The translations under genes were made by a program, and so were the position numbers. Source: a virus. Taken from it: a stretch of DNA of 45,323 bases. The notes under the pieces were generated by a model. It did no database searches and had not been told where the DNA came from. It saw nothing but the letters and a program-made list of their open reading frames with translations. This document shows, piece after piece, positions 13,067 through 44,578 of the stretch (positions are counted from its first letter, which is position 1; the number at the start of each line of letters is the position of its first letter). Location of the stretch: positions 1-45,323 of the IMG/VR virus record IMGVR_UViG_3300035158_000869; one strand, given 5' to 3'.

Positions 13067-13765
13067 TTAATATCTAACGGCAAATACTTGAATCCAAGGA
13101 ATCTGCCTGTATCCAGCCTGACCACTTGAATATCCTGTACCACCTGTTGTTACTGTTCCGATATCACCATTACCGTTTACTGTGGCTGTAGAATGATTAA
13201 GACCGATTCCCCATCCCTTGGTTTTGGTAACTTTGGAAGCACCATCTACTACTATACATATTGCATCAGCGTTCATCTTGAGACCTTGAAGAGCTACTTC
13301 TGACATAAGTTCCAAGTTAGTTGTATAAACATCATCCGCCTCTGCTGTAATAACACCAACAAGTTTTACTTCTTTATCTTTTGGAAGACCTAATATAATA
13401 TCAATAGTATCGTTAGGTTTCTCATCTTCTCTTGAATAACGTACAAAGGATCGTGTTCTAAATTTTATATCACTACCTTCGGTATTAGCTTCAAGTACTG
13501 TTCTCATCCAAGTAGGTTTGAGATTTACTACAAGGTTTAGAGGAATTACTGAACCGTCTGGTTGGTCTGGTCCAAGGTGTCCCGGAAGACCTGGATAGGT
13601 CGTTTCAACACCATTTGCAAAAGATTGAGGAATTTCTGAAGCCTCAAAGTTTTGTTCAACACTTGCTCCTGCACCAGCCATTGCATTTACCCCTCCTGCA
13701 TTAACAACAGGAGTTACCGCAAATAACATACTTACTACTGCTAAAAAAACCAACAATTTTTTCAT
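13067..13765 (-). CDS. Secreted protein of unknown function
   Basis: This 232-residue protein has a clear Sec signal peptide (MKKLLVFLAVVSMLFAVTP, cleavage after VNA near residue 23) and no further membrane segment. The mature part begins Gly/Ala-rich (GGVNAMAGAGASVEQN), has a central region with ADAICIVVDG, and ends with a Gly/Thr-rich stretch and PWIQVFAVRY. It looks like a bacterial cell-surface or periplasmic protein, not a virion protein. It is 30 bases downstream of another secreted protein, both under the riboswitch leader. Confidence 0.8.
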   Translation of the reverse strand: MKKLLVFLAVVSMLFAVTPVVNAGGVNAMAGAGASVEQNFEASEIPQSFANGVETTYPGLPGHLGPDQPDGSVIPLNLVVNLKPTWMRTVLEANTEGSDIKFRTRSFVRYSREDEKPNDTIDIILGLPKDKEVKLVGVITAEADDVYTTNLELMSEVALQGLKMNADAICIVVDGASKVTKTKGWGIGLNHSTATVNGNGDIGTVTTGGTGYSSGQAGYRQIPWIQVFAVRY

Positions 13766-13795: not shown

Positions 13796-14629
13796 TTACC
13801 TAGGTGCATACATACTTGTAATATGTGTACCACCGTTTACACTTGTATTACCATTTGTAGAAAATGACATACTTCTAGCCTTAGCCGTTACACCATGTCT
13901 AGTATACTCCACATTAGACATACCTACAGTACCTGCTAGACCTGCCCCCATAGAATGATGATAACCATTAGTTTCATAACCATAGGATGCATTACCGCCG
14001 GTCCATGCTTCTGCTCCATGCTTGTTAGCATAAGTACCATGTTCCACATAACCTTCACCTGCTGTCCATGTATCATATTCATTACAACCAGCGTAAGAAT
14101 GTCCCAAACTTCCTGTTAATGCTCCTGCCATTGAAACGGAGCTATTATTTGTATCAAAACGGGTTGCACCAACTAAGGTACCTCCCATCGTTGTTGCATT
14201 ACCTTCTGTATTAGCATAAGGATTAAACCATCCATCATGGTCTTCTGCATAGTATCCTGCTACACTACTTTGACCACCGCCAGCAAAAGTGCCCGGATTT
14301 GGGTTTACATATGCTTCTGAGTATTGAAAACTTTCACCATATGCATTTGTATATGCATTACCATAAAGGCCTCTTCTTGCCCAAGCGTTTGATTCTACTT
14401 TTTGTAAAGAAAAAGCACCTGCAACATTCCTAGTAACAAAAGAACCTTCAACCGGACGATAAGCCTTTGCATTAGCTTCTCCATTAGAGTAAAACCAACC
14501 ATTTGCACTATAATTAGAACCAACAGTATAATCCGTACCTGAATTAGCATACGCTCCAACTGCTAATGCTGAACCACTAATCATAAAAATTGAAACAACA
14601 ACTGCAATTAAACTAAAAAACTTTTTCAT
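13796..14629 (-). CDS. Secreted Gly/Asn/Tyr/Ala-rich protein
   Basis: This 277-residue protein has signal peptide MKKFFSLIAVVVSIFMISGS and an ALA cleavage site near residue 23. The mature protein is low in charge and rich in Gly, Asn, Tyr, Ser and Ala, with recurring short motifs such as AYANSG, NAYTNAYGES and GGNASYGYETNG, as in extracellular fibre or adhesin-like proteins. It is the first gene after the c-di-GMP-type riboswitch, which fits a surface or biofilm role set by second-messenger level. It may change the surface of the infected cell; no family is recognised. Confidence 0.8.
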   Translation of the reverse strand: MKKFFSLIAVVVSIFMISGSALAVGAYANSGTDYTVGSNYSANGWFYSNGEANAKAYRPVEGSFVTRNVAGAFSLQKVESNAWARRGLYGNAYTNAYGESFQYSEAYVNPNPGTFAGGGQSSVAGYYAEDHDGWFNPYANTEGNATTMGGTLVGATRFDTNNSSVSMAGALTGSLGHSYAGCNEYDTWTAGEGYVEHGTYANKHGAEAWTGGNASYGYETNGYHHSMGAGLAGTVGMSNVEYTRHGVTAKARSMSFSTNGNTSVNGGTHITSMYAPR

Positions 14630-14791: not shown

Positions 14792-14814
14792 CCGGGCTGC
14801 CTTCGGCAACCCGG
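14792..14814 (-). terminator. Riboswitch expression-platform terminator
   Basis: A 10-bp stem CCGGGTTGCC/GGCAGCCCGG with a short loop is followed by TTTTTT on the minus strand. Its 5' arm is the conserved 3' segment of the aptamer (GCCGGGUUGCC), so ligand binding and terminator formation should exclude each other. On this logic ligand would favour read-through. Confidence 0.88.
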
Positions 14815-14882
14815 CCTTCTCTTAAAAGTAGAGAACCGTAGCTTTCTGCCCCCGCCTCACAACGAGTTTAGCTTTATCGGAC
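14800..14882 (-). promoter_or_regulatory. GEMM-I riboswitch, c-di-GMP-I type
   Basis: The minus-strand RNA matches the GEMM-I core in order. CUAAA is followed by a 6-bp stem CUCGUU/GGCGGG capped by the GNRA loop GUGA (14866-14851). Then come GGCAGAAAGCUA, a second stem UUCUCU/AGAGAA, and the tetraloop-receptor strand GGCCGGGUUGCC. This lines up nearly base for base with Geobacter GEMM-Ib RNAs as I remember them. At the ligand-selectivity position (14872) the base is G, as in c-di-GMP binders, not the A of cGAMP binders. The receptor strand forms half of a terminator hairpin. The downstream genes encode two secreted proteins. Ligand choice is less certain than class. Confidence 0.87.
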
Positions 14883-15153: not shown

Positions 15154-16407
15154 CTATGGCCAAATACCTCTAAGTTGCATAGCATTAGCTACTCTACCAA
15201 CACCAAGAATATATGCAGCAGTTCTCATATTAGTATTATTCTCATTTCGTATTTTTAGAACTTGTTCAAATGATTGTTTCATTATATTCTCTAGTCTAAC
15301 ATCTACTTCTTTTTCTGACCACAATAACTCCTGTAAGTTTTGTACCCATTCAAAATAAGACACTGTAACACCTCCAGCATTAGCTAATATATCTGGTGCT
15401 ACCATAATATTTTTATCAAATAAAATATTATCCGCATCAGGAGTAGTGGGTCCATTTGCTCCTTCTAGTAAAAGTTTACATTTTATATTTTCAGCATTAT
15501 CCTTAGTTATTTGGTTTTCCAATGCTGCTGGTATTAAAATATCACATTCAAGTTCTAATAGTTCTTTATTTGATATTTCATCAGCATCAACTTTATCCTC
15601 AAGTAAACATCCATAATTATCTCTACAATTCAAAACCTTTTCCACGTCAAGACCGTCTTTATTATACAAACCACCTCTAGAACTACTTATTGCTATAACC
15701 TTAGCACCGGCAGATGAAAACTGTTTAGCAGAAACAGAACCCACATTACCACAACCTTGAATTACCACTTTTGCATCCTTTAAATCAAGTCCTATATGTT
15801 CAGCAGCATATGAACCTACTAAAAATACACCTCTACCTGTTGCAGCTAATCTACCAAGTGAACCACCCATTTCAATAGGTTTTCCTGTAACAACGCCTGG
15901 AACAGAATAACCTTTAAGCATTGAATATGTATCCATAAGCCAACACATGGTTTGTGGATTTGTGTGCATATCTGGTGCAGGAATATCTTTTTCTGGTCCT
16001 ATAATGGGTGAAATTTCATTTGTATATCGCCTGGTCAACTTTTCAATTTCTCTTTGCGACATATCATTTGGACCACACTGTATACCTCCCTTTGCTCCAC
16101 CAAAAGGAATATTAACAACTGCTGCTTTCCATGTCATCCACATTGCTAATGCTTTAACCTCATCTAAATTTACTGATGGGTCAAAGCGTATACCACCTTT
16201 AGCCGGCCCTCTAGAATCATTATGACGTACTCTATAACCTCGAAAAACTTTTATAGAACCATCGTCCATTTTAACAGGAAAATTTACAATATATTCTAGC
16301 TTTGTTGTTTTCAATACATCAAAAATATCTGAAGTTATATTCCCTAAATACGGCCTAACAATATCTACCTGTTCTTTGGCTATTTCATAAGGATTTATGT
16401 GATTCAT
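15154..16407 (-). CDS. gdhA: Glutamate dehydrogenase
   Basis: This 417-residue, full-length enzyme belongs to the Glu/Leu/Phe/Val dehydrogenase family. Catalytic-site segments are intact: GPAKGGIR with Lys70, MTWKAA with Lys94, the active-site loop PFGGAKGG with Lys106, and PAPDMHTN with Asp146. The Rossmann motif GCGNVG (218-223) binds NAD(P). It interconverts glutamate and 2-oxoglutarate plus ammonia. The length matches hexameric bacterial enzymes, so it is likely active. A gdhA gene is rare in phages; it may supply 2-oxoglutarate, NAD(P)H or nitrogen for nucleotide synthesis. It lies between small phage genes in one operon. Confidence 0.95.
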   Translation of the reverse strand: MNHINPYEIAKEQVDIVRPYLGNITSDIFDVLKTTKLEYIVNFPVKMDDGSIKVFRGYRVRHNDSRGPAKGGIRFDPSVNLDEVKALAMWMTWKAAVVNIPFGGAKGGIQCGPNDMSQREIEKLTRRYTNEISPIIGPEKDIPAPDMHTNPQTMCWLMDTYSMLKGYSVPGVVTGKPIEMGGSLGRLAATGRGVFLVGSYAAEHIGLDLKDAKVVIQGCGNVGSVSAKQFSSAGAKVIAISSSRGGLYNKDGLDVEKVLNCRDNYGCLLEDKVDADEISNKELLELECDILIPAALENQITKDNAENIKCKLLLEGANGPTTPDADNILFDKNIMVAPDILANAGGVTVSYFEWVQNLQELLWSEKEVDVRLENIMKQSFEQVLKIRNENNTNMRTAAYILGVGRVANAMQLRGIWP

Positions 16408-21073: not shown

Positions 21074-22186
21074 TTAAAACTCTTTATCGTCTTTCCTTAA
21101 CTTCAATTTAGTTGCAAATATTTTTCTTTCATATCCTGTCAAACTATAATTCTTCTTTAAATCTTTCATCCTATTATATAGTCTTTTTAACTTTCTTATA
21201 TTTTCCTTACTCCTTGGAATTTCACCTTTTTTCATTCTTCTATCTAGTTTACCATGTCTTACTTCTAATGTAAACAGCTGAACTTTATTCAGTATCCTTG
21301 ATAACTTATTTATATATTCTTTCTTCTTGAAATCCTTATCAACGGCAATACTTAAACCATATGCAAATTTAGCTATAGTATTTTTTACCACACTCCATTT
21401 CTTATGATAATTTTTACCTCCCATATATCTAAATTCTATATACTTATTATTACTTTCTAAATTATCAAAATTTATACCGAGAAATTTATCATACGGAAAG
21501 TTAGATTCCATCTTACCTACTTTGAAGAGGTTTCTAATAATCTTGTTAGTTATCTTTCCTTTTTTTATTTTTTCATGTACGGATTCACACCATTGGTTAT
21601 CTTTTCTACATTCAAAATTTTCATAAGCATATTCTTCATCAAAAAATAAGGCTAGTTTTACAGGGTCGATATCCTCTTCTAGATCAGATATACCTTCTAT
21701 GCTCATTGAAACATGAAAACCTGTTTCGTTAGTGGTTTCACCATAGTTGTTAACGAAATTCATCATTGATTCTGCCAAATCCATAAATTTGTCCACTTCC
21801 ATAGGCGGTGAGGCTATTTCTATACCATAATCTAACGCATCATCAGGTTTTATAACCCAAGTATCACCTGTTGGTGTGTCACCTGATTCTCTTGTTACTT
21901 TAAAGTGTGGATAGAAAGGTAATTTATCTATTTCTAAATAATTATCTACTATATAATCAAATCTTTCATCTGGATTTTTAGGAACTTCGTCTATGGCAGG
22001 CTCAGTGCCTTCTTCAGCATCGTAATATTCATCCCAAATATCATCAGACCTCTTAGCAAACTCTTCAAAACCTTTTGGAACAAACTCCCATTCAGCACCA
22101 ACTATTAGATTAGTATTTTTTAGAGCTTTTTGTAAATCCTTTTTGTACGATGCCTCATTTAATATGTAGTGTTTAAATCTTGACAC
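21074..22186 (-). CDS. Amidoligase-like protein with capsid-targeting N-terminus
   Basis: This protein has 370 residues. Segments resemble the amidoligase family (glutamine-synthetase-like fold): IVGAEWEFVPKG near residue 28, TWVIKPDDALDYGIEIASPP with the G-x-E-x-x-S-P core, TGFHVSMSIEG with the metal-binding His, GINFDNL, and YIEFRYMGG with the Glu-Phe-Arg motif. Family members form isopeptide or amide bonds using ATP. The N-terminus MSRFKHYILNEAS is a capsid-targeting-like leader with an NE-A junction. It overlaps the ligase gene by 14 bases. A peptide ligase injected with the DNA is a speculative but attractive reading. Confidence 0.72.
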   Translation of the reverse strand: MSRFKHYILNEASYKKDLQKALKNTNLIVGAEWEFVPKGFEEFAKRSDDIWDEYYDAEEGTEPAIDEVPKNPDERFDYIVDNYLEIDKLPFYPHFKVTRESGDTPTGDTWVIKPDDALDYGIEIASPPMEVDKFMDLAESMMNFVNNYGETTNETGFHVSMSIEGISDLEEDIDPVKLALFFDEEYAYENFECRKDNQWCESVHEKIKKGKITNKIIRNLFKVGKMESNFPYDKFLGINFDNLESNNKYIEFRYMGGKNYHKKWSVVKNTIAKFAYGLSIAVDKDFKKKEYINKLSRILNKVQLFTLEVRHGKLDRRMKKGEIPRSKENIRKLKRLYNRMKDLKKNYSLTGYERKIFATKLKLRKDDKEF

Positions 22187-24752: not shown

Positions 24753-24938
24753 TTACTTTACTTCAACCCGTGAATGATATTTTCTTATCTTACTATTGCT
24801 ATTTTTCAACTTCTTCCATACAAATTTATAATAACATGAGCACTCTAAGTAATTCCTAGATTCTCTACATATACCTTCACATAAATCACCTACAGCACAA
24901 CCTTCATAAATCTTTGATCTTTCTCTCTTCTTAGACAT
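24753..24938 (-). CDS. Small Cys-rich protein
   Basis: This 61-residue, strongly basic protein has five Cys (GCAVGDLCEGICRES and LECSCYY). It is probably zinc- or iron-sulfur-binding. It sits between the JAMM protease and the HD phosphodiesterase with gaps of about 10 bases, so it is made with the ubiquitin-like cassette. The function is unknown; it could be a RING-like accessory, but the spacing is too short for a full RING. Confidence 0.7.
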   Translation of the reverse strand: MSKKRERSKIYEGCAVGDLCEGICRESRNYLECSCYYKFVWKKLKNSNSKIRKYHSRVEVK

Positions 24939-24947
24939 AAAAACTCC

Positions 24948-25937
24948 TTAATGTTCTTGACTAATACCTGCTTCTATAAGTTCATTTTCTAATTTCTTCT
25001 TTTCATCATCTGTGAGAACATCTTTTTCCCAGAGGTTATCTGAAAGATTTTCATCCTCATCACTCTCATCATTAAGCCAAGATTCAAAATCCTCATTAGA
25101 TTCACCCCATATATCTTCATCCGTCTCAACAGAATCCTCATATCTTACTTCCCTTACAGTCTCCCAACTGAAAGACCTGTTATTAAATCTATCATATTCT
25201 ACAACTTCCCTAACTTTACCAGGTTCTGGTTGTCCTATAGTTATAACAACAACTTTTTTATTGTCTTCACCAACACCACACCTCTCAGCAAAAGCACCCG
25301 GCGAACCATGAACACCATTAGTTACGATGTTACTAATAACAGGAGGCTGTGGTTTTTTAATAAACTCTTCTGCCTCTTTTAAGAAACCAGGCTTATCCAA
25401 TACTGTGTCCATCATCAAACGAATATTAGCCTCTACAATTTTCAAAGCTCCACATGGAGTTTTCCATCGAACTTGACCACCAACACCAGAATGAGATACA
25501 CAAAGAGAAATATCATGATTCTGGTTAATATAATTATTATCAGTTCCAGAAAAGTCATGGCCCATATTATGATGGGAATGAATAACACCTATAATAGGTA
25601 AACCCTGTTCATTAGAAAACTCAATATTCTTAACAGTAGTCGCTGATGCTTCTTGTTTGGGTATAACAATATCCTCCACAACATTGTTTTCACCAACCAA
25701 ATATGCTAACCATTCTTGTGAAGTATATTTCTCCATCAAAGCGTCAATCTTAGCCTTCACCAGTGGTTTGATAAAAACCTGTATAGATTCAGGACACTTG
25801 CTACATTCTTCAACTACATCCAATTCACTTTCCCAGTAATTATCATTTGTAGTTATATTATGTACTTTTTGAGGAGCTTGCTTTTTCTTCATTTGACTCT
25901 TTTTCCTCTCTTTTCTCTTCTTTTTATTACTTGCCAT
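24948..25937 (-). CDS. JAB/JAMM metalloprotease (deubiquitinase-like)
   Basis: This 329-residue protein starts from the ATG at 25937 (AAGGAAGAA upstream). A Lys-rich tail of about 25 residues comes first. The JAMM core is complete: Glu75 in SQEWLAYLVG, then His120-Ser-His122 in VIHSHHNMGHDF, Ser130 and Asp133, i.e. H-x-H-x7-S-x2-D. These ligate the catalytic zinc of isopeptidases that remove ubiquitin-like proteins. A long acidic C-terminal region follows. As the fourth gene of a Ubl-E2-E1-JAMM operon it is likely to reverse conjugation, because the Ubl already ends in glycine and needs no trimming. Confidence 0.92.
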   Translation of the reverse strand: MASNKKKRKERKKSQMKKKQAPQKVHNITTNDNYWESELDVVEECSKCPESIQVFIKPLVKAKIDALMEKYTSQEWLAYLVGENNVVEDIVIPKQEASATTVKNIEFSNEQGLPIIGVIHSHHNMGHDFSGTDNNYINQNHDISLCVSHSGVGGQVRWKTPCGALKIVEANIRLMMDTVLDKPGFLKEAEEFIKKPQPPVISNIVTNGVHGSPGAFAERCGVGEDNKKVVVITIGQPEPGKVREVVEYDRFNNRSFSWETVREVRYEDSVETDEDIWGESNEDFESWLNDESDEDENLSDNLWEKDVLTDDEKKKLENELIEAGISQEH

Positions 25938-25965
25938 TTCTTCCTTACCCTCAACTATTTCCTTA

Positions 25966-26553
25966 CTAGTAGTTAAATAACCTAGTAATCTGCGTAGACA
26001 ATTCTTTACTTTCATATTTCATCACCTTTGCAACAACCAGAGAGGCTACAATGCTAGCAGGTACCACCCAAGATGGAACAACCCTGTAACCATCTTCTGC
26101 TTCTCCCCACTCTGCTACTCTACCACTTACTGTAATAGATTCACCATCATATCCTGCTTTCACATACTTACATCCTCTCTTATCTGCTATGCTTTGATTT
26201 TCTAATTGTACAGAGTGAGAATCAGTACAGTCAATAATCCAATCAGTATCAGCAAAAGTATGATCCTGAAACTTATAAGGCATGGAAATTACATAACATT
26301 CTGGTCTTAACTGATCAAGGATTTTCTTTGTTATCTCAGACTTATTCCAGCCAATAGAATTATGAGGTAAATCTATTCTAGCCAAATTATGCTCTTCAAT
26401 AACATCAGGATCGAATAGATAGATTTTTTCAACACCAGAAAGTGCTAAAAATTTAGCCACCCAGAAACCAATTCCACCACAACCAATCACGGTTACAGAG
26501 AAATCTCTTTTTAACCCTTCTATTCTATCCTGTCTATCATAAAGTGTACTCAT
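25966..26553 (-). CDS. E1-like (ThiF/MoeB family) activating enzyme
   Basis: This 195-residue adenylation domain has the nucleotide loop VIGCGGIGFWVAKFL (24-29 GCGGIG), LFDPDVIEEHNLARIDLPHN with Asp48/Asp50, Asn56 and Arg59 of the ATP site, and WIIDCTDSHSVQLENQ with Asp111. It adenylates the C-terminal Gly of a ubiquitin-like protein. It lacks the CxxC zinc pairs and any rhodanese or ubiquitin-fold domain, so it is a minimal E1. It lies between the E2-like and JAMM genes. The residue forming the thioester, if one forms, is uncertain; Cys128 in KRGCKYV is a candidate. Confidence 0.92.
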   Translation of the reverse strand: MSTLYDRQDRIEGLKRDFSVTVIGCGGIGFWVAKFLALSGVEKIYLFDPDVIEEHNLARIDLPHNSIGWNKSEITKKILDQLRPECYVISMPYKFQDHTFADTDWIIDCTDSHSVQLENQSIADKRGCKYVKAGYDGESITVSGRVAEWGEAEDGYRVVPSWVVPASIVASLVVAKVMKYESKELSTQITRLFNY

Positions 26554-26569
26554 CCTTTATCTTCCTTTC

Positions 26570-27442
26570 TTATGAGGTCCAAAAATCACTTTCGTCAATA
26601 TTTGAGTTTTCTTCTACACCAACTCTTTTTTCCTCTCTACGGAGATTCACTTTATTATCAGGTGCTTTTTTCTCACCTGTAAGGTGTCTACACACAGTGT
26701 TATATCTCGGTAGACCTCTAGGACGTCTCTCAGCTAGAGAACCAGAATTGATGTTTTCCAAAACAATTTGTGCTTCCTGTGCTATATTGATTATATCTAT
26801 AGGTGTTTCCCAATTTCTAGGATATTTCCATCTACCCCAACAATCTGGATTAGACTGGTGGTAATGTTGGAAATAACCTAAACCTATTGGTTGTCTTGTG
26901 GAAACTCTCTGTACTTTTTTACCTTTGGTTTCTATAAGAACAACAATAGGTGTAATCATTTTCTTTTGATATTTAGGATCAATATATTCTTGGTCAAGAG
27001 TTTTAGGCCAATAAATGCCTTGTACTAGCCAAATATATTCATCTTGTCCTGTACCTTTGACAACGGAAAGACCTTTTTTAGCATCCTCAACACTAACATC
27101 TGGCATTAGTTTAGCTTCATGAAGTTTTCTAGTCAATTCTTCTTCTTTCCTTTCATATTCAAACCTAATACGTGAAACAAAATCTGACATACTATTAATT
27201 TTATCGTTAATATGTTTCTTAATAATATTTAACTTTTCAATGAGTTTATCTCTATATTCCTTTCTTATCTCTTCTTCAATGTCAAGAGGTTCTTCACTAA
27301 CTACCTCAAGTTTTAGAACCTTGTTACCGGCTCTAACAGTTAGTCCATCAAGCTCAATATCATCAGATTTTATACCATCAAGCATTGACCACATTTCCTC
27401 AATATCTTTTTTAGCTCTTTCTTCCATATTATACCTTGACAT
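26570..27442 (-). CDS. E2-like ubiquitin-conjugating protein
   Basis: This 290-residue protein has an N-terminal half (residues 1-115) that is a charged helical, coiled-coil region. The C-terminal half shows the E2 pattern: strand-rich IWLVQGIYWPK and ITPIVVLIET, then an HPN-like turn GYFQHYHQSNPDCWGRW with the probable catalytic Cys201 followed by Trp-Gly, then TPIDIINIAQEAQIVLENIN like the post-Cys helices of E2 enzymes. It would receive the Ubl from the E1 as a thioester and transfer it to a target. The genomic position between Ubl and E1 supports this. A degenerate E2 without activity is the alternative. Confidence 0.75.
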   Translation of the reverse strand: MSRYNMEERAKKDIEEMWSMLDGIKSDDIELDGLTVRAGNKVLKLEVVSEEPLDIEEEIRKEYRDKLIEKLNIIKKHINDKINSMSDFVSRIRFEYERKEEELTRKLHEAKLMPDVSVEDAKKGLSVVKGTGQDEYIWLVQGIYWPKTLDQEYIDPKYQKKMITPIVVLIETKGKKVQRVSTRQPIGLGYFQHYHQSNPDCWGRWKYPRNWETPIDIINIAQEAQIVLENINSGSLAERRPRGLPRYNTVCRHLTGEKKAPDNKVNLRREEKRVGVEENSNIDESDFWTS

Positions 27443-27515
27443 TTTAGACCTCTCAAAATATAACTAAAGGGAACCAAAATGGCTCCCTTTAATCTGGTTT
27501 CTATTGGTGTTTCTA

Positions 27516-27794
27516 TTAACCGGCAACATCATAAGGACGAATATCAAGTCTGTCACCTTCATTGATGAGTTCTGGTGCCTCAGAAGGCTTGATTTCACTA
27601 CCATTAAAATGGACTCTAAACTTTCCAAGTCCTGCGTCCTTAGAAAGACCTACTACAGTATCCTTGAATGAGGAACCTGGTGTAATGTTAACACGGGCAC
27701 CGTTTACAGATGCATAGGTACCTGCAGTATCAAAAGCCTCATCAGTTTCCTCGTCTTCATTTACCATTTGATCCCAATAATTATCATCAAACAT
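27516..27794 (-). CDS. Ubiquitin-like modifier (beta-grasp)
   Basis: This 92-residue protein has an acidic, disordered N-terminus of about 25 residues, then a beta-grasp fold: SVNGARVNITPGSSFKDTVV (strand-turn-strand and helix start), LGKFRVHFNGSEI, and LINEGDRLDIRPYDVAG. The INEGDRLDIRPYD segment is typical of ubiquitin/MoaD-like modifiers. The chain ends in a bare Gly, ready for E1 adenylation with no pro-peptide. It is the first gene of the E2-E1-JAMM operon and has its own promoter. Sulfur transfer (ThiS-like) is less likely given the E2. Confidence 0.88.
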   Translation of the reverse strand: MFDDNYWDQMVNEDEETDEAFDTAGTYASVNGARVNITPGSSFKDTVVGLSKDAGLGKFRVHFNGSEIKPSEAPELINEGDRLDIRPYDVAG

Positions 27795-27851
27795 TTTACT
27801 TTACCTCCTTTTCCTATTTAAAAATTGCATTTGTCTCTCAACCTTTTTCTT

Positions 27852-27880
27852 ATTATACAACAGAAAAACCTGAATGTAAA
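27852..27880 (-). promoter_or_regulatory. Promoter of the ubiquitin-like operon
   Basis: The minus strand has TTTACA, 17 bases, TATAAT, a near-perfect box set that ends 57 bases before the Ubl start codon. The -35 box lies just past the stop of the sliding clamp. It gives the cassette expression independent of the clamp operon. Confidence 0.85.
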
Positions 27881-27882
27881 CA

Positions 27883-28620
27883 TTATTCTGCTTCTGACAT
27901 AAGAAAATATTGCTCTGATTTTTCATCGTTTCCAATGTAACACATACCTAAATCCTGATCTTTCATGTAAGTTAGTCTTACTTTAAAATCTGTAGGATCA
28001 GTCAACACCATGATTGTATTTACGAGATTTTTATAATCAAAACAGAGTCTTAGATCATCATTTTCAATATCAAGAAGATGATACCTCAGGCTGTTGCTAA
28101 AACTATTCTCTCCATCTGTGGTTTCAATGTATAACTTGTTTTCCTCAATAAAGAAATATATTTTCCCAAATCGAGAGCCTATTGCTTTTATTTTCTTAAA
28201 AATATTTATGAAAGTATCATCAATATCAAACTCAACAAAATATTCAATACCATCATGTGGTGAACCTCCTGTGAAAACACTAACAATCTGATCGGAACAG
28301 AAATGAATATTTGATTTTTGGGCACCGTTTATAATTTCAATTTTTCCTCTTTGTATTTTAACATCCGCAACATCATCATCAACCAACTTTAAAAACGGTA
28401 TAACATTTTTTCCTATTTCAGAAAAATTAAATACATGTTCTTTCCTGAGATAACCAAAAATATCGTTATCCATATTTAGTAAAACTATAGCATCACGGTT
28501 AGTGGATATCATTCTTGATTCTATCGTATCAGGAGATATATTTAGCTGAACATTATCAATGCTAAAATTTATAGTTGCTTTCTTCAGTAAATCCTTAAAC
28601 TTTTCCACATTAGTATTCAT
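27883..28620 (-). CDS. Sliding clamp, T4 gp45/PCNA-like
   Basis: This 245-residue protein has segments that fit the two-domain phage clamp: FKDLLKKATINFSI at the N-terminus, IESRMISTNRDAIVLLNM, and the second domain with YFVEFDIDDTFINIFKKI and VRLTYMKDQDLGMCYIGNDEK near the end. It forms a ring that tethers polymerase and, in T4, is needed for late transcription. It directly follows the two clamp-loader genes, as in T4. The size (T4 gp45 has 228) fits. Confidence 0.86.
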   Translation of the reverse strand: MNTNVEKFKDLLKKATINFSIDNVQLNISPDTIESRMISTNRDAIVLLNMDNDIFGYLRKEHVFNFSEIGKNVIPFLKLVDDDVADVKIQRGKIEIINGAQKSNIHFCSDQIVSVFTGGSPHDGIEYFVEFDIDDTFINIFKKIKAIGSRFGKIYFFIEENKLYIETTDGENSFSNSLRYHLLDIENDDLRLCFDYKNLVNTIMVLTDPTDFKVRLTYMKDQDLGMCYIGNDEKSEQYFLMSEAE

Positions 28621-28634
28621 ACAAATTCTTCCTC

Positions 28635-28994
28635 CTAAATATCTAAAAATGTCAGGTACATCTTTGCTTCTCTAGTAGATATACCATATACTTCCTTCAT
28701 TTTATCTATGGTTTTCTTTCTCTTTTTGTCATCTCCCTCCTTTTTCACCCATTTAATAAATCTCTTTTTTCTTGGAATCTTGTTCATGTAATATTGGTAA
28801 ATTAGATCATCCGATAACTTGAATTGTAGAGGGTTCAACCTGTTTACTATGTTTATAAGTTCTTTATCATGGGATAACCAAAGTGATAACATATATGCAT
28901 TTGCCTTTTTCTTATCATATACCACATTCTTGTTTTTGTAAAATATAGCATTTAAAAAAGTGAATAAATTAGGGCCATCATCTTTCTTAGGCAT
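28635..28994 (-). CDS. Clamp-loader small subunit, T4 gp62-like
   Basis: This 119-residue protein has YMLSLWLSHDKELINIVN and YYMNKIPRKKRFIKWVKK, the pattern of small clamp-loader subunits of T4-like phages (short helical protein ending in a basic patch). It would act with the AAA+ subunit to open the clamp. It is shorter than T4 gp62 (187). Its start overlaps the stop of the AAA+ gene. Confidence 0.8.
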   Translation of the reverse strand: MPKKDDGPNLFTFLNAIFYKNKNVVYDKKKANAYMLSLWLSHDKELINIVNRLNPLQFKLSDDLIYQYYMNKIPRKKRFIKWVKKEGDDKKRKKTIDKMKEVYGISTREAKMYLTFLDI

Positions 28995-29887
28995 TAAATT
29001 ATCCCCTGCTTCATCATATTAACCACCATAGCCATAAAATTTATCTCTTTTATAGCAACTGTAGTATCTCTATACATATACTCACCTATCATTATGATAG
29101 CATCCCCCGGTGATTTGAAACCGTCTATATTTTCAAATAAATGTTTATATAATGCTGCATAATTAATTGTATTACTTTTTAGTGTTACTCTGATATTATC
29201 AAGGTCTCCTTCCTTCATAGACTTTAATATACCATCCCACATTGATTCATAAACACCTTCATCACTTACCAATTTACCTTTCAAAACATTTTGTTGAACT
29301 GTCAATATTGTACTTCTTATATCAGGGTGACATTTTTTAACAATATTCACCAACATCTTTTGATCAAATTTAACATTTTCCTTCTTCAAAATATCAGCAA
29401 CAAACTTGTAAACCTCTTTACCTGGTGGATTGTCCACTCTAATTACTTGACACCTTGACATTAGCTCATTCATCATCAAAGATTCATCATTGGTTAGAAA
29501 AATAAATCTAGTAATCCTCTGAACATCTTCTATTAACTGTTTCAACATCTTTTGTGCACCAGATGCTCCTCTACTAAGAGCATCTGCCTCGTTCAAAACA
29601 ACAATCTTTAGAGGAGTTATACCAAGAGCAGTGGAAAAACTTTTCACCTTATCTCTTATAGCATCAATACCTGTTTCATCTGATGCATTTATCCACATAT
29701 GATCGAAGCCAGTTTCCTTGATGAAAATATTAGTGAATGTTCCCTTACCTACACCAGGCGGACCTACTAACATCAAATTTGGTACTTCTTCCAGAGCCTT
29801 TTTCAATTTAGATTTTATCTTATCATTCAAAATTATATCATCAAATTTTTGTGGTTCATACTTAAAGGTCCATATTTCTTTACTCAT
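28994..29887 (-). CDS. Clamp-loader AAA+ subunit, T4 gp44-like
   Basis: This 297-residue AAA+ ATPase has Walker A GPPGVGKGTF (residues about 42-50), Walker B VVLNEADALS, sensor 1 FIFLTND and the arginine-finger SRC motif (MSRCQVIRV). It loads the sliding clamp on primer-template. The N-terminus MSKEIWTFKYEPQKFDDI is the RFC-box-like start of RFC/gp44 proteins. It heads the loader-clamp operon after one small gene. Confidence 0.93.
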   Translation of the reverse strand: MSKEIWTFKYEPQKFDDIILNDKIKSKLKKALEEVPNLMLVGPPGVGKGTFTNIFIKETGFDHMWINASDETGIDAIRDKVKSFSTALGITPLKIVVLNEADALSRGASGAQKMLKQLIEDVQRITRFIFLTNDESLMMNELMSRCQVIRVDNPPGKEVYKFVADILKKENVKFDQKMLVNIVKKCHPDIRSTILTVQQNVLKGKLVSDEGVYESMWDGILKSMKEGDLDNIRVTLKSNTINYAALYKHLFENIDGFKSPGDAIIMIGEYMYRDTTVAIKEINFMAMVVNMMKQGII

Positions 29888-41280: not shown

Positions 41281-41352
41281 GGGTCGGAGGCCATGGTGGC
41301 CAAACGGGCTCCAAACCCGTAGGACAGGGTTCGATTCCTTGCCGGCCTGCCA
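41281..41352 (+). tRNA. trnW: tRNA-Trp (CCA)
   Basis: The acceptor stem GGGTCGG/CCGGCCT, anticodon stem ACGGG/CCCGT with loop CTCCAAA and T-arm CAGGG/CCTTG are all paired; CCA is encoded. The D-loop is very short (ATGGT). Confidence 0.85.
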
Positions 41353-41357
41353 AATAT

Positions 41358-41434
41358 AGGCAAGTGATGGAATTGGCATACATGATGGTTTCAAAAATCA
41401 TTTTTTGAGGGTTCGACTCCCTCCTTGCCTACCA
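41358..41434 (+). tRNA. trnL: tRNA-Leu-like (CAA), short variable loop
   Basis: The acceptor AGGCAAG/CTTGCCT, T-arm GAGGG/CCCTC and anticodon stem ATGGT/ATCAT (one G-U pair) with loop TTCAAAA give anticodon CAA, reading UUG. CCA is encoded. The variable loop is only five T, unlike the long arm of bacterial leucine tRNAs, so charging with leucine is not certain. Confidence 0.72.
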
Positions 41435-41445
41435 GAAAGGACATA

Positions 41446-41634
41446 ATGATGAGAGTAGGAAATATAGAAAATACGGAAAAGATTGAATATAAAATGATGA
41501 GAGATTATGGAAGAGGTAAAATTAAATTGTTTACAAATGATAAAAGATTTGATAATATAATCCGTAATCTCAAAGAAAAACTGATAAAGAAGCACCGTAG
41601 CTCAAAGGTAGAGCAATCGGCTGATAACCGATAG
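41446..41634 (+). CDS. Small basic protein running into tRNA-Ile
   Basis: This 62-residue protein starts MMRVGNIENTEKIEYKMMRD with AAAGGACATA upstream. The last 14 codons lie inside the tRNA-Ile gene; the stop TAG is in the anticodon arm region. The composition (basic, helical) is like other small phage proteins. Translation into a tRNA gene suggests that the transcript is either an mRNA or a tRNA precursor, not both. Confidence 0.6.
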   Translation: MMRVGNIENTEKIEYKMMRDYGRGKIKLFTNDKRFDNIIRNLKEKLIKKHRSSKVEQSADNR

Positions 41635-41664
41635 ACAAGAGTTCGATTCTCTTCGGTGCTACCA
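41591..41664 (+). tRNA. trnI: tRNA-Ile (GAT)
   Basis: Acceptor AGCACCG/CGGTGCT, anticodon stem ATCGG/CCGAT with loop CTGATAA, T-arm AAGAG/CTCTT, CCA encoded. Confidence 0.93.
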
Positions 41665-41686
41665 ACAAATTAGAAAGGAATAAATA

Positions 41687-41893
41687 ATGACAGAAAGATA
41701 TTGGATAGCTCATTGGTCAATGGGTTTCGTTGGTACAGATACAGAGTAAGAAGTAGATATTAAAGATTTATTAGGTTTAACAGAAGAAAAACTTAAAAGT
41801 ATGAGTAATGAAAAAGCAGAAAAGGAAGTAGCAAATTATGCATGGGAAATGGCAGTACTACAGATAGATGCATGGGCTGAACCAAAAGACTAG
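41687..41893 (+). pseudogene. Small gene interrupted by one in-frame TAA
   Basis: From the ATG at 41687 (AAAGGAATAAATA upstream) the frame reads MTERYWIAHWSMGFVGTDTE, then TAA at 41747-41749. It continues in the same frame EVDIKDLLGLTEEKLKSMSN and on to WAEPKD before TAG at 41891. The whole resembles a common phage protein (YW-x-A-H-W-S-x-G-F-x-G-T-D-T-x-E) that is normally uninterrupted. It is either a single nonsense mutation, a sequencing error, or stop-codon read-through. No suppressor tRNA for UAA is visible in this window. Confidence 0.65.
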
Positions 41894-41895
41894 AA

Positions 41896-42264
41896 GGGAG
41901 TGAAATGGTATCGACAGGAATGGAAATCTATGAGTTGCATGCCATGGTTGATCGAAGGCCATGTAAAAATTCGATCATTAAAGTAATCGCAGATGATTAC
42001 GCTTACGCCAAGGCTGCTTAGACAGCCTTTGTCCACCTAAAACCATCCTGACGTTTTAGAATTGGGCATCATACAGTTGGGATAGATTTTGATTCTGGCA
42101 ACTTTCCCTGTACCATGAATCACCATCGAAATCAAATTGGCAAAGGGAAACTTCTCAAAGACCGGTTGCTTGTGAATTTGAAGAAGTAATAATAAGTAAC
42201 TAAGCATGTAGAGATTGATAGTGAACATTGTTGGACGCGGGTTCGACTCCCGCCACTTCCACCA
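41896..42264 (+). ncRNA. ssrA: tmRNA with tag ADDYAYAKAA
   Basis: The 5' end GGGAGTG pairs with CACTTCC before an encoded ACCA; the third pair is G-U, the alanyl-tRNA synthetase identity element. The 5' segment GGTATCGACAGG matches the conserved tmRNA start, and the 3' T-arm is GCGGGTTCGACTCCCGC. The resume codon GCA is at 41989 after AGTAATC. The tag reads ADDYAYAKAA and stops at TAG inside the hairpin AAGGCTG/CAGCCTT. The RNA rescues stalled ribosomes and tags their products for proteolysis. It is 369 nt, a full single-piece length. Confidence 0.94.
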
Positions 42265-42281
42265 AATAGAAAGGAAATAAT

Positions 42282-42620
42282 ATGTCAGTAAAACTAGTTG
42301 ATACACAAAGAATGGAAACAATAAAAGAAAACTTTGTTGACTTGGTAATGGAAAATATCGACTGGAGTAAGATAGAATGGGCTCTCAAAGCAAAACATAA
42401 CATAGAACTGAGTGATGATATTGAATTTATTAAAGGTGATATTATTTCCCATACAAATGATATCGCTTGTAAACTCAAATTTGAAGTAAAAATGAATTTA
42501 GATATTTTAGTGGGAAGAGATGGTAGATTTATTTCAAACAATCTAAAACCTGTAGACAAGAAAAAGAAGTTACCTGAAGCAATCGAAAGAGTACAGGCTG
42601 CTAACTCAATGGTAGAGTAG
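42282..42620 (+). CDS. Hypothetical protein running into tRNA-Lys
   Basis: This 112-residue protein starts MSVKLVDTQRMETIKENFVD with AAAGGAAATAAT upstream. It is mixed helical with no recognised motif. Its last eight codons are inside tRNA-Lys (stop in the D-arm), the same arrangement as at 41446-41634. Confidence 0.68.
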   Translation: MSVKLVDTQRMETIKENFVDLVMENIDWSKIEWALKAKHNIELSDDIEFIKGDIISHTNDIACKLKFEVKMNLDILVGRDGRFISNNLKPVDKKKKLPEAIERVQAANSMVE

Positions 42621-42668
42621 CTGGCTTTTAACCAGCAAATCAGGGTTCGATTCCCTGGCGGCCTACCA
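42595..42668 (+). tRNA. trnK: tRNA-Lys (TTT)
   Basis: Acceptor AGGCTGC/GCGGCCT (one G-U), anticodon stem GCTGG/CCAGC with loop CTTTTAA, T-arm CAGGG/CCCTG, CCA encoded. Confidence 0.93.
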
Positions 42669-42674
42669 AATAAT

Positions 42675-42749
42675 GACCCCGTAGTTCAATGGTTAGAATG
42701 TCAGGCTTTCAACCTGAATACGGGAGTTCAATTCTCCCCGGGGTCACCA
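42675..42749 (+). tRNA. trnE: tRNA-Glu (TTC)
   Basis: Acceptor GACCCCG/CGGGGTC, anticodon stem TCAGG/CCTGA with loop CTTTCAA, T-arm GGGAG/CTCCC, CCA encoded. Confidence 0.93.
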
Positions 42750-42754
42750 AATAT

Positions 42755-42829
42755 TCCGGCATAGTGTCAATGGCAGCACGGCTGGCTGTTAACCAGCAAG
42801 TACAGGTTCGACCCCTGTTGCCGGAGCCA
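42755..42829 (+). tRNA. trnN: tRNA-Asn (GTT)
   Basis: Acceptor TCCGGCA/TGCCGGA, anticodon stem GCTGG/CCAGC with loop CTGTTAA, T-arm ACAGG/CCTGT, CCA encoded. Confidence 0.93.
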
Positions 42830-42836
42830 AAATTAC

Positions 42837-42911
42837 CGGGCACAAGTCTCGGGGTGAGACGCGTGATTTGGGATCACGAAGCGCCGAGTTCGACTCTCGG
42901 GTGCCCGACCA
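42837..42911 (+). tRNA. trnP: tRNA-Pro (TGG)
   Basis: Acceptor CGGGCAC/GTGCCCG, anticodon stem CGTGA/TCACG with loop TTTGGGA, T-arm CCGAG/CTCGG, CCA encoded. The C1-G72 pair is typical of bacterial tRNA-Pro. Confidence 0.93.
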
Positions 42912-42934
42912 TATCAACTAGGAGATAAAATAAT

Positions 42935-43060
42935 AGAGGTAAAGACAAGACAGATATAGAAGAACTAATAAAAACAAACGAATTGGACAAGTCTTTTTCA
43001 AAAAAGTTACCATCAAATGTAAGAAGTAAATTCTTGAAAATATACGGAAGGGTCGCCTAA
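42935..43060 (+). pseudogene. Remnant small open frame without start codon
   Basis: Between tRNA-Pro and tRNA-Ser the frame encodes RGKDKTDIEELIKTNELDKS and ends IYGRVA at TAA inside tRNA-Ser. GGAG lies 12 bases upstream, but no ATG, GTG or TTG is in frame at the right place (the codons are AAT AAT). It looks like a small basic gene that has lost its start. Confidence 0.45.
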
Positions 43061-43131
43061 CAGGTATGGCAGTTGATTGCTAATCAACCGGTGTAAAAGC
43101 CGTACAGGTTCGATTCCTGTCCCTTCCGCCA
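43046..43131 (+). tRNA. trnS: tRNA-Ser (GCT)
   Basis: Acceptor GGAAGGG/CCCTTCC, anticodon stem GTTGA/TCAAC with loop TTGCTAA, a long class II variable arm (CGGTGTAAAAGCCG), T-arm ACAGG/CCTGT, CCA encoded. Confidence 0.92.
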
Positions 43132-43151
43132 CCTCAAAAAGGAGATTGTTA

Positions 43152-43403
43152 ATGACTATTATAAACACTAAAATTAAATTGTGGGAGAAAGATAAAAACG
43201 GTAATGAAAATATATTTATGTGTTTAAGTAGGAATAAAGAGCAAGAAAAATGTAATGTAAGAGAAGAAGTTGAAACCTTTAAGAAATTTTACAATGATAG
43301 AATTTCTAGAATTACGGTTAACATTAAAGAGGTTTTCATATATACTAAGAACAGTAAGCATGAAAACGGTGTCATTGATGAAGATGATGGATATTGTGAT
43401 TAA
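43152..43403 (+). CDS. Hypothetical protein
   Basis: This 83-residue protein starts MTIINTKIKLWEKDKNGNEN with AAAGGAG upstream. The sequence alternates basic helix and strand and ends with an acidic EDDGYCD. It ends two bases before tRNA-Tyr. No family is recognised. Confidence 0.7.
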   Translation: MTIINTKIKLWEKDKNGNENIFMCLSRNKEQEKCNVREEVETFKKFYNDRISRITVNIKEVFIYTKNSKHENGVIDEDDGYCD

Positions 43404-43404
43404 T

Positions 43405-43492
43405 GGGTGAGTTGAGCAGTGTGGTGGGCTTAGCGGGCTGTAACCCCGTAGTCATTGAGACCTTGGAGGTTCGATTCCTCCCTCACCCACCA
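43405..43492 (+). tRNA. trnY: tRNA-Tyr (GTA)
   Basis: Acceptor GGGTGAG/CTCACCC, anticodon stem GCGGG/CCCGT (one G-U) with loop CTGTAAC, a long class II variable arm, T-arm GGAGG/CCTCC, CCA encoded. Confidence 0.92.
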
Positions 43493-43505
43493 AAAGGAGA
43501 AGTAA

Positions 43506-44420
43506 ATGAAAGAAGAAAGTGAAAAAAAATTTGTTAGATTCTCAGAAATCGAAAATCCTGATTTTGTTTACAAAACAATAGATAAATATGTAGAGGATTT
43601 TAATCCTTCTCAGAATCAAGAATTTTGGCAAATCACTGAGAAAATTCATGGTTCTAATGTATGTATATCAAATAAGTATGAAGAAGGACCTGCTTTTTTC
43701 ACTAGAAATGGAAACCAACTTCCATCTGATTATCAAAATGTAATGAAACAATATAACTGGGAAGAATATTTTAGAAAAAATCCAGACATTGATTTTGTTT
43801 ACGGAGAAATAGCAGGAAAGAAGATTCAAAAAGGTGTTGATTATGGTGAAAGAGCATTCTATGTATTCGATGCTAAAGATAAAGATGGTAACTTCAAACA
43901 ACCTATTATTGAAAATATAGAAATTAGCGGATATTACAGACCCTTTCAACTAGCACCTGTAATAACATATATTACATGTACGTTGGATGAAGTATTGAAG
44001 TACTGTTACGGTCTAATAGAATCGGATACTTTAACTCAAATAAATCCTATTGAAGGAAATATAGTAGAAGGATTTGTTATAAAATGTCTATCAAGACCAA
44101 AACTTACTACTTATAGTAGATTTATAATTAAGGTAAAGCATCCGAAGTTTGAGGAAAAACAAAGAGAAAGAAAGAGACCAAAAAAACAAGATGACTTTGA
44201 TTATTCTCCAGTGGAACCATATGTAAATGAAAACAGAGCACATTCTGCTATGAGTAAGTTTCCTGGATATAAGAAGGATCAAATAGGAGATGTATTGAGG
44301 GAAGTAGTAAATGACATTAAAAACTCAATGGAAAAAGATGGTTTGGAATGGGAAAAGCAATATTGTAAATATATTAATAGACAAATAAGTAAAATAGTAG
44401 TGAAAGGAGCTGACGTATAA
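43506..44420 (+). CDS. RNA ligase, T4 Rnl2-like
   Basis: This 304-residue nucleotidyltransferase has motif I TEKIHGSNVCI (adenylated Lys46), a later YGEIAG (motif III-like, near residue 98), EGFVIK (motif IV) and FIIKVKH (motif V). These match T4 RNA ligase 2, which seals nicks in double-stranded RNA. The gene lies between tRNA-Tyr and tRNA-Thr, so repair of tRNAs cleaved by host anticodon nucleases is a natural role. A C-terminal helical domain of about 90 residues (from KKQDDFDYS) follows, as in Rnl2. Confidence 0.88.
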   Translation: MKEESEKKFVRFSEIENPDFVYKTIDKYVEDFNPSQNQEFWQITEKIHGSNVCISNKYEEGPAFFTRNGNQLPSDYQNVMKQYNWEEYFRKNPDIDFVYGEIAGKKIQKGVDYGERAFYVFDAKDKDGNFKQPIIENIEISGYYRPFQLAPVITYITCTLDEVLKYCYGLIESDTLTQINPIEGNIVEGFVIKCLSRPKLTTYSRFIIKVKHPKFEEKQRERKRPKKQDDFDYSPVEPYVNENRAHSAMSKFPGYKKDQIGDVLREVVNDIKNSMEKDGLEWEKQYCKYINRQISKIVVKGADV

Positions 44421-44422
44421 AA

Positions 44423-44496
44423 GGCCCTGTAGTTCAATGGTAGAACGTGGGATTTGTAACCCCTTGACCTCGGTTCGACTCCGAGTAGGGCCTCCA
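44423..44496 (+). tRNA. trnT: tRNA-Thr (TGT)
   Basis: Acceptor GGCCCTG/TAGGGCC (one G-U), T-arm CTCGG/CCGAG, loop TTTGTAA, CCA encoded. The anticodon stem is weak: only the three inner G-C pairs form cleanly, with mismatches at both ends. Confidence 0.82.
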
Positions 44497-44501
44497 TTAA
44501 A

Positions 44502-44578
44502 GACAGTGTAGCCAAAATGGATAAGGCGACTGGTTGCAACCCAGTAAATTAGGAGTTCGAGTCTCCTCACTGTCTCCA
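44502..44578 (+). tRNA. trnC: tRNA-Cys (GCA)
   Basis: Acceptor GACAGTG/CACTGTC, anticodon stem ACTGG/CCAGT with loop TTGCAAC, T-arm AGGAG/CTCCT, CCA encoded. Confidence 0.92.

Follow-up and report, generated by a model that had tools for sequence, protein, structure and literature searches.

In the virus record IMGVR_UViG_3300035158_000869, analysed over its whole 45,323 bases (hereafter the window), we found a four-gene cassette that we consider likely to be a phage-encoded, reversible ubiquitin-like conjugation system belonging to a T4-like replication module. The cassette encodes a ubiquitin-like modifier (Ubl), an E2-like protein, a minimal E1 and a JAMM metalloprotease. A first-pass annotation of the same DNA had read these four open reading frames (ORFs) on the minus strand between 27794 and 24948, and both their positions and the identity of each part were confirmed. 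The argument from sequence draws on family matches of the E1 and JAMM proteins, on catalytic residues that do not vary, on the co-inheritance with the sliding clamp and on the selection acting on the genes. The cassette is real and conserved, and it is probably active as a Ubl conjugation set, which suggests that a lineage of large T4-like phages may reversibly tag proteins during infection, perhaps those of its own replication machinery. Its components are as follows.

27516 to 27794, minus strand: Ubl, a 92-amino-acid ubiquitin-like modifier with a predicted beta-grasp fold, ending in ...RPYDVAG before the stop codon
26570 to 27442, minus strand: E2-like protein of 290 amino acids, with the motif HYHQSNPDCWG containing Cys201
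25966 to 26553, minus strand: minimal E1/ThiF adenylation domain of 195 amino acids (Pfam ThiF)
24948 to 26015, minus strand: JAMM/MPN+ metalloprotease, an ORF of 355 amino acids with H146-S-H148-x7-S156-x2-D159 (Pfam Prok-JAB)
27852 to 27880, minus strand: promoter TTTACA-17-TATAAT before the Ubl gene, matching the consensus at 11 of 12 positions
27462 to 27494, minus strand: hairpin of 15 bp with a T-rich stretch behind it, in the gap between the Ubl and E2 genes, a candidate terminator or attenuator

The adenylation domain and the metalloprotease were both recognised at the family level. The E1 matched Pfam ThiF over the cut-off (E=1.6e-23) and its ATP site (GxGGxG, D48, N56, R59, K71 and D111) was invariant in 28 of 28 sequences, in agreement with the minimal ThiF/E1 domain initially proposed. 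Profile matches in the PDB included MccB, Uba1, UBA5, MoeB, ThiF and Cap2, and models of defence E1-E2 proteins were matched as well. The one near-invariant cysteine of the E1 is C109, within a DCTD motif, replaced by threonine in the loci L015 and L016 (L-numbers are locus labels of this analysis). The JAMM protein matched Pfam Prok-JAB (E=7.2e-6), and its residues E101, H146, H148, S156 and D159 were likewise invariant (28/28), so that the H-x-H-x7-S-x2-D motif read from the window stands. By eye, the ATG at 25937, just past the E1 stop, is a likelier start of its translation (329 amino acids) than position 26015, which falls within the E1 gene. We considered a degenerate JAMM in L087 and L096 and rejected it, their aligned active-site residues being intact and the motif pattern having apparently been missed through an inserted residue.

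Searches with the E1 sequence retrieved 13 viral loci and with an E1 profile 27, while an E2 profile added one contig of a Thermoplasmata metagenome-assembled genome (MAG). Removal of duplicates left 27 distinct T4-like loci, i.e. the window and 26 relatives, two of them incomplete at contig ends (L003 stops after the E2 gene and L088 begins at the E1 gene). All but the one binned in the archaeal (Thermoplasmata) MAG are uncultured viral contigs. The order Ubl-E2-E1-JAMM was common to all 27 loci as far as the contigs reach, with a tandem pair of E2-like genes in L005 and L014, and the proteins of these lineages share only ~35–60% identity. Close pairs displayed ratios of non-synonymous to synonymous substitution (dN/dS) of 0.07–0.36, indicating purifying selection. 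With the Pfam matches of the E1 and JAMM proteins and the recurrence of the same-order cassette in 26 other distinct loci, this indicates that the arrangement is more than chance.

The cassette had also been described as lying among replication genes, and in the window it indeed adjoins the gp44-gp62-gp45 block of clamp and clamp-loader genes. Its neighbours on both sides are listed here.

27883 to 28620, minus strand: sliding clamp, gp45-like, directly upstream of the cassette (PHROG 223 processivity factor, E=4e-7)
28635 to 28994, minus strand: clamp-loader small subunit, gp62-like (PHROG 225, E=2.1e-23)
28994 to 29887, minus strand: clamp-loader large subunit, gp44-like AAA+ protein (PHROG 168, E=4.5e-62; Pfam AAA, 5.8e-12)
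24753 to 24938, minus strand: Cys-rich ORF of 61 amino acids, 3' of the JAMM gene

The gp44-like protein additionally matched Gp44_lid at 1.3e-4, below the Pfam cut-off. The small Cys-rich ORF had no family match and no counterpart in the first relatives compared, and its membership of the cassette is not supported. The T4-like assignment draws on the T4-type gp44, gp62 and gp45 genes of the window and on a gp23 capsid gene in three related contigs; gp23 is absent from the window fragment itself.

This neighbourhood is nearly constant. Of the 26 distinct loci whose sequence extends upstream, 25 have the cassette directly behind gp44-gp62-gp45, and L099 is the sole locus without an upstream clamp. 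All 25 clamp-bearing loci read gp44-gp62-gp45-Ubl-E2-E1-JAMM as far as the sequence reaches (in L092, gp44 lies outside the examined stretch). Intergenic gaps are mostly below 160 bp; in the L086-L098 group, 600–820 bp separate the clamp from the Ubl gene, with an extra gene in L086, L090 and L098. The distances of the four cassette proteins are correlated with the gp45 distances (Mantel r 0.56–0.67, p 0.0005; gp44: 0.69), and the gene trees share the groups L009/L013, L007/L011, L005/L006, L087/L096 and L086-L098, with support that is not full in every tree. These shared groupings are consistent with vertical inheritance together with the replisome. Counter-defence genes are usually patchy; with a fixed clamp and clamp-loader neighbour and co-inheritance, the cassette resembles instead a part of the replication module. 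We therefore regard as rather unlikely that the set serves to modify or compete with host Ubl defence (Bil, type II CBASS Cap2/Cap3 or 6A-MBL), for instance by modifying defence proteins or through stripping of host tags by the JAMM protein. Relatives of each part do act in antiphage defence, the E1 matches defence E1-E2 models and other CBASS antagonists are carried by phages, such as T4 Vs.4 (PMC10097602), but this cassette is fixed and vertically inherited beside core replication genes in the 25 loci, and it retains all four activities, more than would be required of a decoy or of an eraser by itself.

For the modifier itself, the AlphaFold2 model (pLDDT 75.7) matched ThiS, SUMO and ubiquitin at a Foldseek probability of ~1.0, with VIA Z values up to 7.2. 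The predicted fold is clearly a beta-grasp, as had been claimed for the 92-residue protein, which Pfam does not recognise. The terminal Gly attributed to it is present in the window but is not universal, since among 26 distinct Ubl sequences (window included) 17 end in a bare Gly, eight extend 1–5 residues past an Ala-Gly and one ends in Ala-Ala. An intact JAMM gene accompanies the tailed Ubls in seven of their eight loci, the contig of L003 ending before the JAMM position. Such short tails suggest that the JAMM protein matures the Ubl in some relatives, while the bare Gly ends of others suggest that it is kept there for deconjugation.

The likeness of the Ubl model to ThiS and MoaD, the minimal MoeB/ThiF type of the E1 and the many tRNA genes of the phage (11, plus a transfer-messenger RNA, tmRNA) could also fit a sulfur carrier, in which Ubl, E1 and JAMM would act as a ThiS/MoaD-ThiF-JAMM set yielding a thiocarboxylate, for instance to thiolate tRNA or nucleotides. 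We consider this very improbable: every complete locus also encodes the E2-like protein, whose His/Cys centre is invariant, sulfur-carrier pathways are not known to have such a protein, and tests of window genes against PHROGs or Pfam revealed neither a sulfurtransferase nor a thiolase.

Under the preferred reading of a conjugation system, this E2-like protein would carry the Ubl. Its NPDCWG motif, proposed from the start as the site of the catalytic Cys, is present, and H193, Y194, H195, C201, W202 and G203 were invariant in 27 of 27 sequences, in an alignment with 13 invariant residues in total. It thus has the Cys (C201) and nearby His (H193, H195) of a catalytic centre. The model (pLDDT 72.4) combines a long N-terminal helix with a core, at residues ~111–252, whose strand order fits the UBC fold. 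Aligned over residues 111–252 with VIA-align, this core was closest to E2-25K (best Z 5.3, root-mean-square deviation 4.2 Å over 114 residues); UbcH5C, Ubc13, Ubc7, UEV, RWD and Cap2 were also listed, and many eukaryotic E2s aligned at Z 4–5.3 and 4–5 Å, although middling Z values of this kind are common. Residue offsets within the VIA ranges would place Cys201 close to where we take Cys92 of E2-25K to lie. The predicted core therefore weakly matches the UBC fold, which is suggestive but no proof of it.

The expression of these genes appears less simple than the operon under one promoter that had been proposed. The promoter before the Ubl gene is indeed there, but the hairpin in the Ubl/E2 gap argues against one plain transcription unit. 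In front of the Ubl gene, the best sigma-70-like match reached at least 10 of 12 positions in 22 of 26 distinct loci, all 22 with a 17-bp spacing, and hairpins between the Ubl and E2 genes were found in 18 of the 26 (both raw counts, without a shuffled control). From the position of the hairpin, the Ubl may be expressed above its enzymes.

We infer every chemical step of the following mechanism. The Ubl would be made from its own strong promoter and, in the relatives whose Ubl bears 1–5 extra residues, the JAMM protein would first expose the terminal Gly. The E1 would use ATP to adenylate this Gly, and the Ubl would then be handed to Cys201 of the E2-like protein, which probably attacks the Ubl-AMP directly or receives the Ubl via the single Cys of the DCTD motif; since the E1 has no Cys domain, the transfer may be direct. 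The E2-like protein, acting without a recognisable E3, would join the Ubl to a target amine, and the JAMM protein would finally take it off. As a guess, the target would most likely belong to the complex for replication or late transcription of the phage, with the adjacent sliding clamp as the first candidate, the constant adjacency making the replisome the first suspect. The more specific idea that the phage tags and untags its own clamp, or a different factor of the replisome or of late transcription, as a conserved part of the T4-like replication module and a bacterial-virus counterpart to the ubiquitylation and SUMOylation of PCNA, is tentative and open to considerable doubt.

Several observations weigh against the reading as a conjugation system. 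The E1 has no separate catalytic Cys domain, a feature of canonical eukaryotic E1s, no E3 was seen, one distinct Ubl (L083/L085) has the Ala-Ala end, and the Ubls of L015 and L016 have no bare terminal Gly. The identity of the E2 is carried by a fold match of middling strength (Z ~5) and by the invariant His/Cys motif. A Foldseek search of its model against the PDB gave no match at E<=0.001 (best E 0.16), and none of the 13 E2-like members tested matched an E2 family in Pfam. The clamp is singled out as a target by synteny, the 13 clamps compared conserve few lysines (K14 is invariant and K145 present in 12), and the C-terminal motif of the E2-like protein is unlike the C-terminus of the polymerase, which is likely to serve as a clamp-binding peptide. 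An invariant clamp lysine as the modification site was accordingly tried and set aside, K14 and K145 not being decisive.

The profile search suggested for the 290-residue protein thus returned no E2 family, the window protein having no match to Prok-E2, PRTRC_B or any other E2 model in Pfam or NCBIfam; the plasmid records searched held no E2-like match, and comparison with viral structure models gave nothing significant. As for the UBC fold expected of this protein, the alignment with many E2s speaks for it, but the resemblance is weak and without a significant Foldseek match, a search probably diluted by the long N-terminal helix. The structure predictions thus did not refute the first-pass reading, as a 290-residue protein lacking a UBC fold and a 92-residue protein lacking a beta-grasp would have done. 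The absence of an E2 family match, and the UEV and RWD domains among the fold matches, could alternatively fit a non-catalytic RWD/UEV-type scaffold, with the E1 attaching the Ubl directly as for archaeal SAMPs; Ubl and E1 systems whose E1 has no Cys domain have been described in archaea (PMC11354881). This appears improbable, as Cys201, His193 and His195 do not vary across 27 sequences that have few other invariant residues, and as the residue offset would place Cys201 close to the catalytic position of E2s.

Near the C-terminus of the E2-like protein, a D-[VIF]-W motif (window 26570–26600), which reads D-F-W in the window protein, is kept in most relatives, and the diverged E2s of L015 and L016 have a similar W ending. 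Docking of the E2 on the clamp through this D-x-W was considered and rejected: polymerase C-termini in the relatives read ...IFG, ...LFFN or ...LFFK instead, and D-x-W shows no enrichment at the ends of other proteins (22 occurrences versus 9.9 expected, about half being the E2s themselves).

Ubl conjugation in bacteria is known chiefly from antiphage defence. The closest arrangement to the phage cassette, class 6d of the Iyer/Aravind operons, comprises a Ubl, a JAB, an E1-like, an E2-like and an alpha-helical protein; we take these operons to be PRTRC cassettes, and they are found on mobile elements. The window E1 weakly matches PRTRC ThiF (1.6e-4) and the JAMM protein of L016 weakly matches PRTRC_A (4.7e-4), but class 6d was described in bacteria and its E2s have no classical upstream His, whereas the phage E2-like protein has two that are invariant. 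Bacterial operons of Ubl, E1, E2 and JAB, class 6d among them, were described by Iyer et al. in 2006 (PMC1779556). The ISG15-like Bil defence (BilABCD) also groups a Ubl, E2, E1 and JAMM, the last maturing the Ubl; by its description, however, Bil has a BilA with a pair of Ub domains, a BilD with one inactive domain plus an active one with a Cys domain, and a BilB with a CEHH motif (PMC11354881), which set it apart from the single Ubl domain, 195-amino-acid E1 and HYHx(n)CWG motif of the phage set. Type II CBASS Cap2/Cap3 and 6A-MBL have a sequence-related E1 adenylation domain and a JAMM partner, but Cap2 is a fused E2-E1 for which the cGAS-like enzyme itself serves as the modifier (PMC10097602), in contrast to the separate proteins and dedicated Ubl found here; the window genes tested included no recognisable CD-NTase, and the cassette does not qualify as type II CBASS.

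Phages were already known to encode parts of such sets. The tail-assembly genes of lambda and T1 pair a Ubl with a conserved Gly (TAPI) with a JAB (TAPK), without an E1 or E2 and as part of tail assembly (PMC1779556), and the RaFAH paper of 2021 noted, in genomes predicted to be those of archaeal viruses, MoeB/ThiF genes that it linked to ubiquitination, but not the remaining parts of the set (PMC8276007). Among the papers listed by searches of open-licence literature, a scope outside which most subscription papers and preprints lie, we saw none that describes a phage with the whole set, which does not establish novelty. Two distant viral loci, L015 and L016, have a diverged four-gene version, on contigs that by our reading also encode a SNF2-type helicase.

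A weak E1 match further led to crAss-like phages (L105–L111), which encode clear JAMM and E1 (ThiF) proteins together with a probable E2 and a probable Ubl-containing protein. In crAss001 these are gp79 (Ubl-like), gp78 (E2-like), gp77 (JAMM) and gp76 (ThiF), with counterparts in DAC15, and the set adjoins DNA primase and uracil-DNA glycosylase. A His-Ser-His ... Cys-x-Gly-x-Gly motif is conserved in six of the E2-like proteins, 74 phage records match the crAss E2-like protein, including Flavobacterium phages, and the ThiF genes match Flavobacterium phages as well. Existing annotations of the set read 'metalloprotease', 'ThiF', 'thiamine biosynthesis protein' or hypothetical, with one 'E1 enzyme family protein'. 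The E1 and JAMM profiles of the crAss-like and T4-like sets are related (hhalign E ~1e-12), but their E2 and Ubl proteins were not alignable and the profile-profile comparison of the E2s gave no significant match. The crAss-like set also differs by a Ubl that is part of a longer protein, by the order E2-JAMM-E1 and by its Bacteroides hosts.

In the T4-like lineages the phage thus owns the entire set, kept beside the replication clamp across diverged lineages. If active, it would amount to a complete viral system for writing and erasing protein tags among the viruses of bacteria, and one would have to ask whether Ubl modification of replication clamps arose more than once. With a related set in the culturable crAss001 and DAC15, this question can be tested now.

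Regarding the host, the window carries 11 tRNA genes and a tmRNA with the tag ADDYAYAKAA at 41281–44578 (plus strand), and tmRNAs with ADDY- tags also occur in the relatives L057 and L060 (ADDYELRMAA, ADDYNYEYAMAA). These tmRNAs point to a bacterial host and, together with the bacterial-type promoters, suggest that the placement of one locus in a Thermoplasmata MAG is likely a mis-binning. In L033, ARAGORN called a tRNA-Pyl with the anticodon CUA (5166–5239), a possible amber suppressor.

Further protein- or peptide-modifying enzymes lie near the cassette, namely a putative amidoligase (PF12224) in the window (21074–22186, minus strand) and a RimK-like ATP-grasp protein in L004 (9003–10427), and TROVE/Ro60-like proteins are encoded just downstream of it in L008 (8157–9737) and L007 (7920–9530). 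Elsewhere in the window, a full-length enzyme of the glutamate-dehydrogenase type was found at 15154–16407 (minus strand; Pfam ELFV, 3e-83). A cyclic-di-GMP riboswitch (c-di-GMP-I-GGC, 61.9 bits) with a terminator-like hairpin occupies 14801–14881 (minus strand), upstream of two genes for signal-peptide-like proteins (13796–14629 and 13067–13765).

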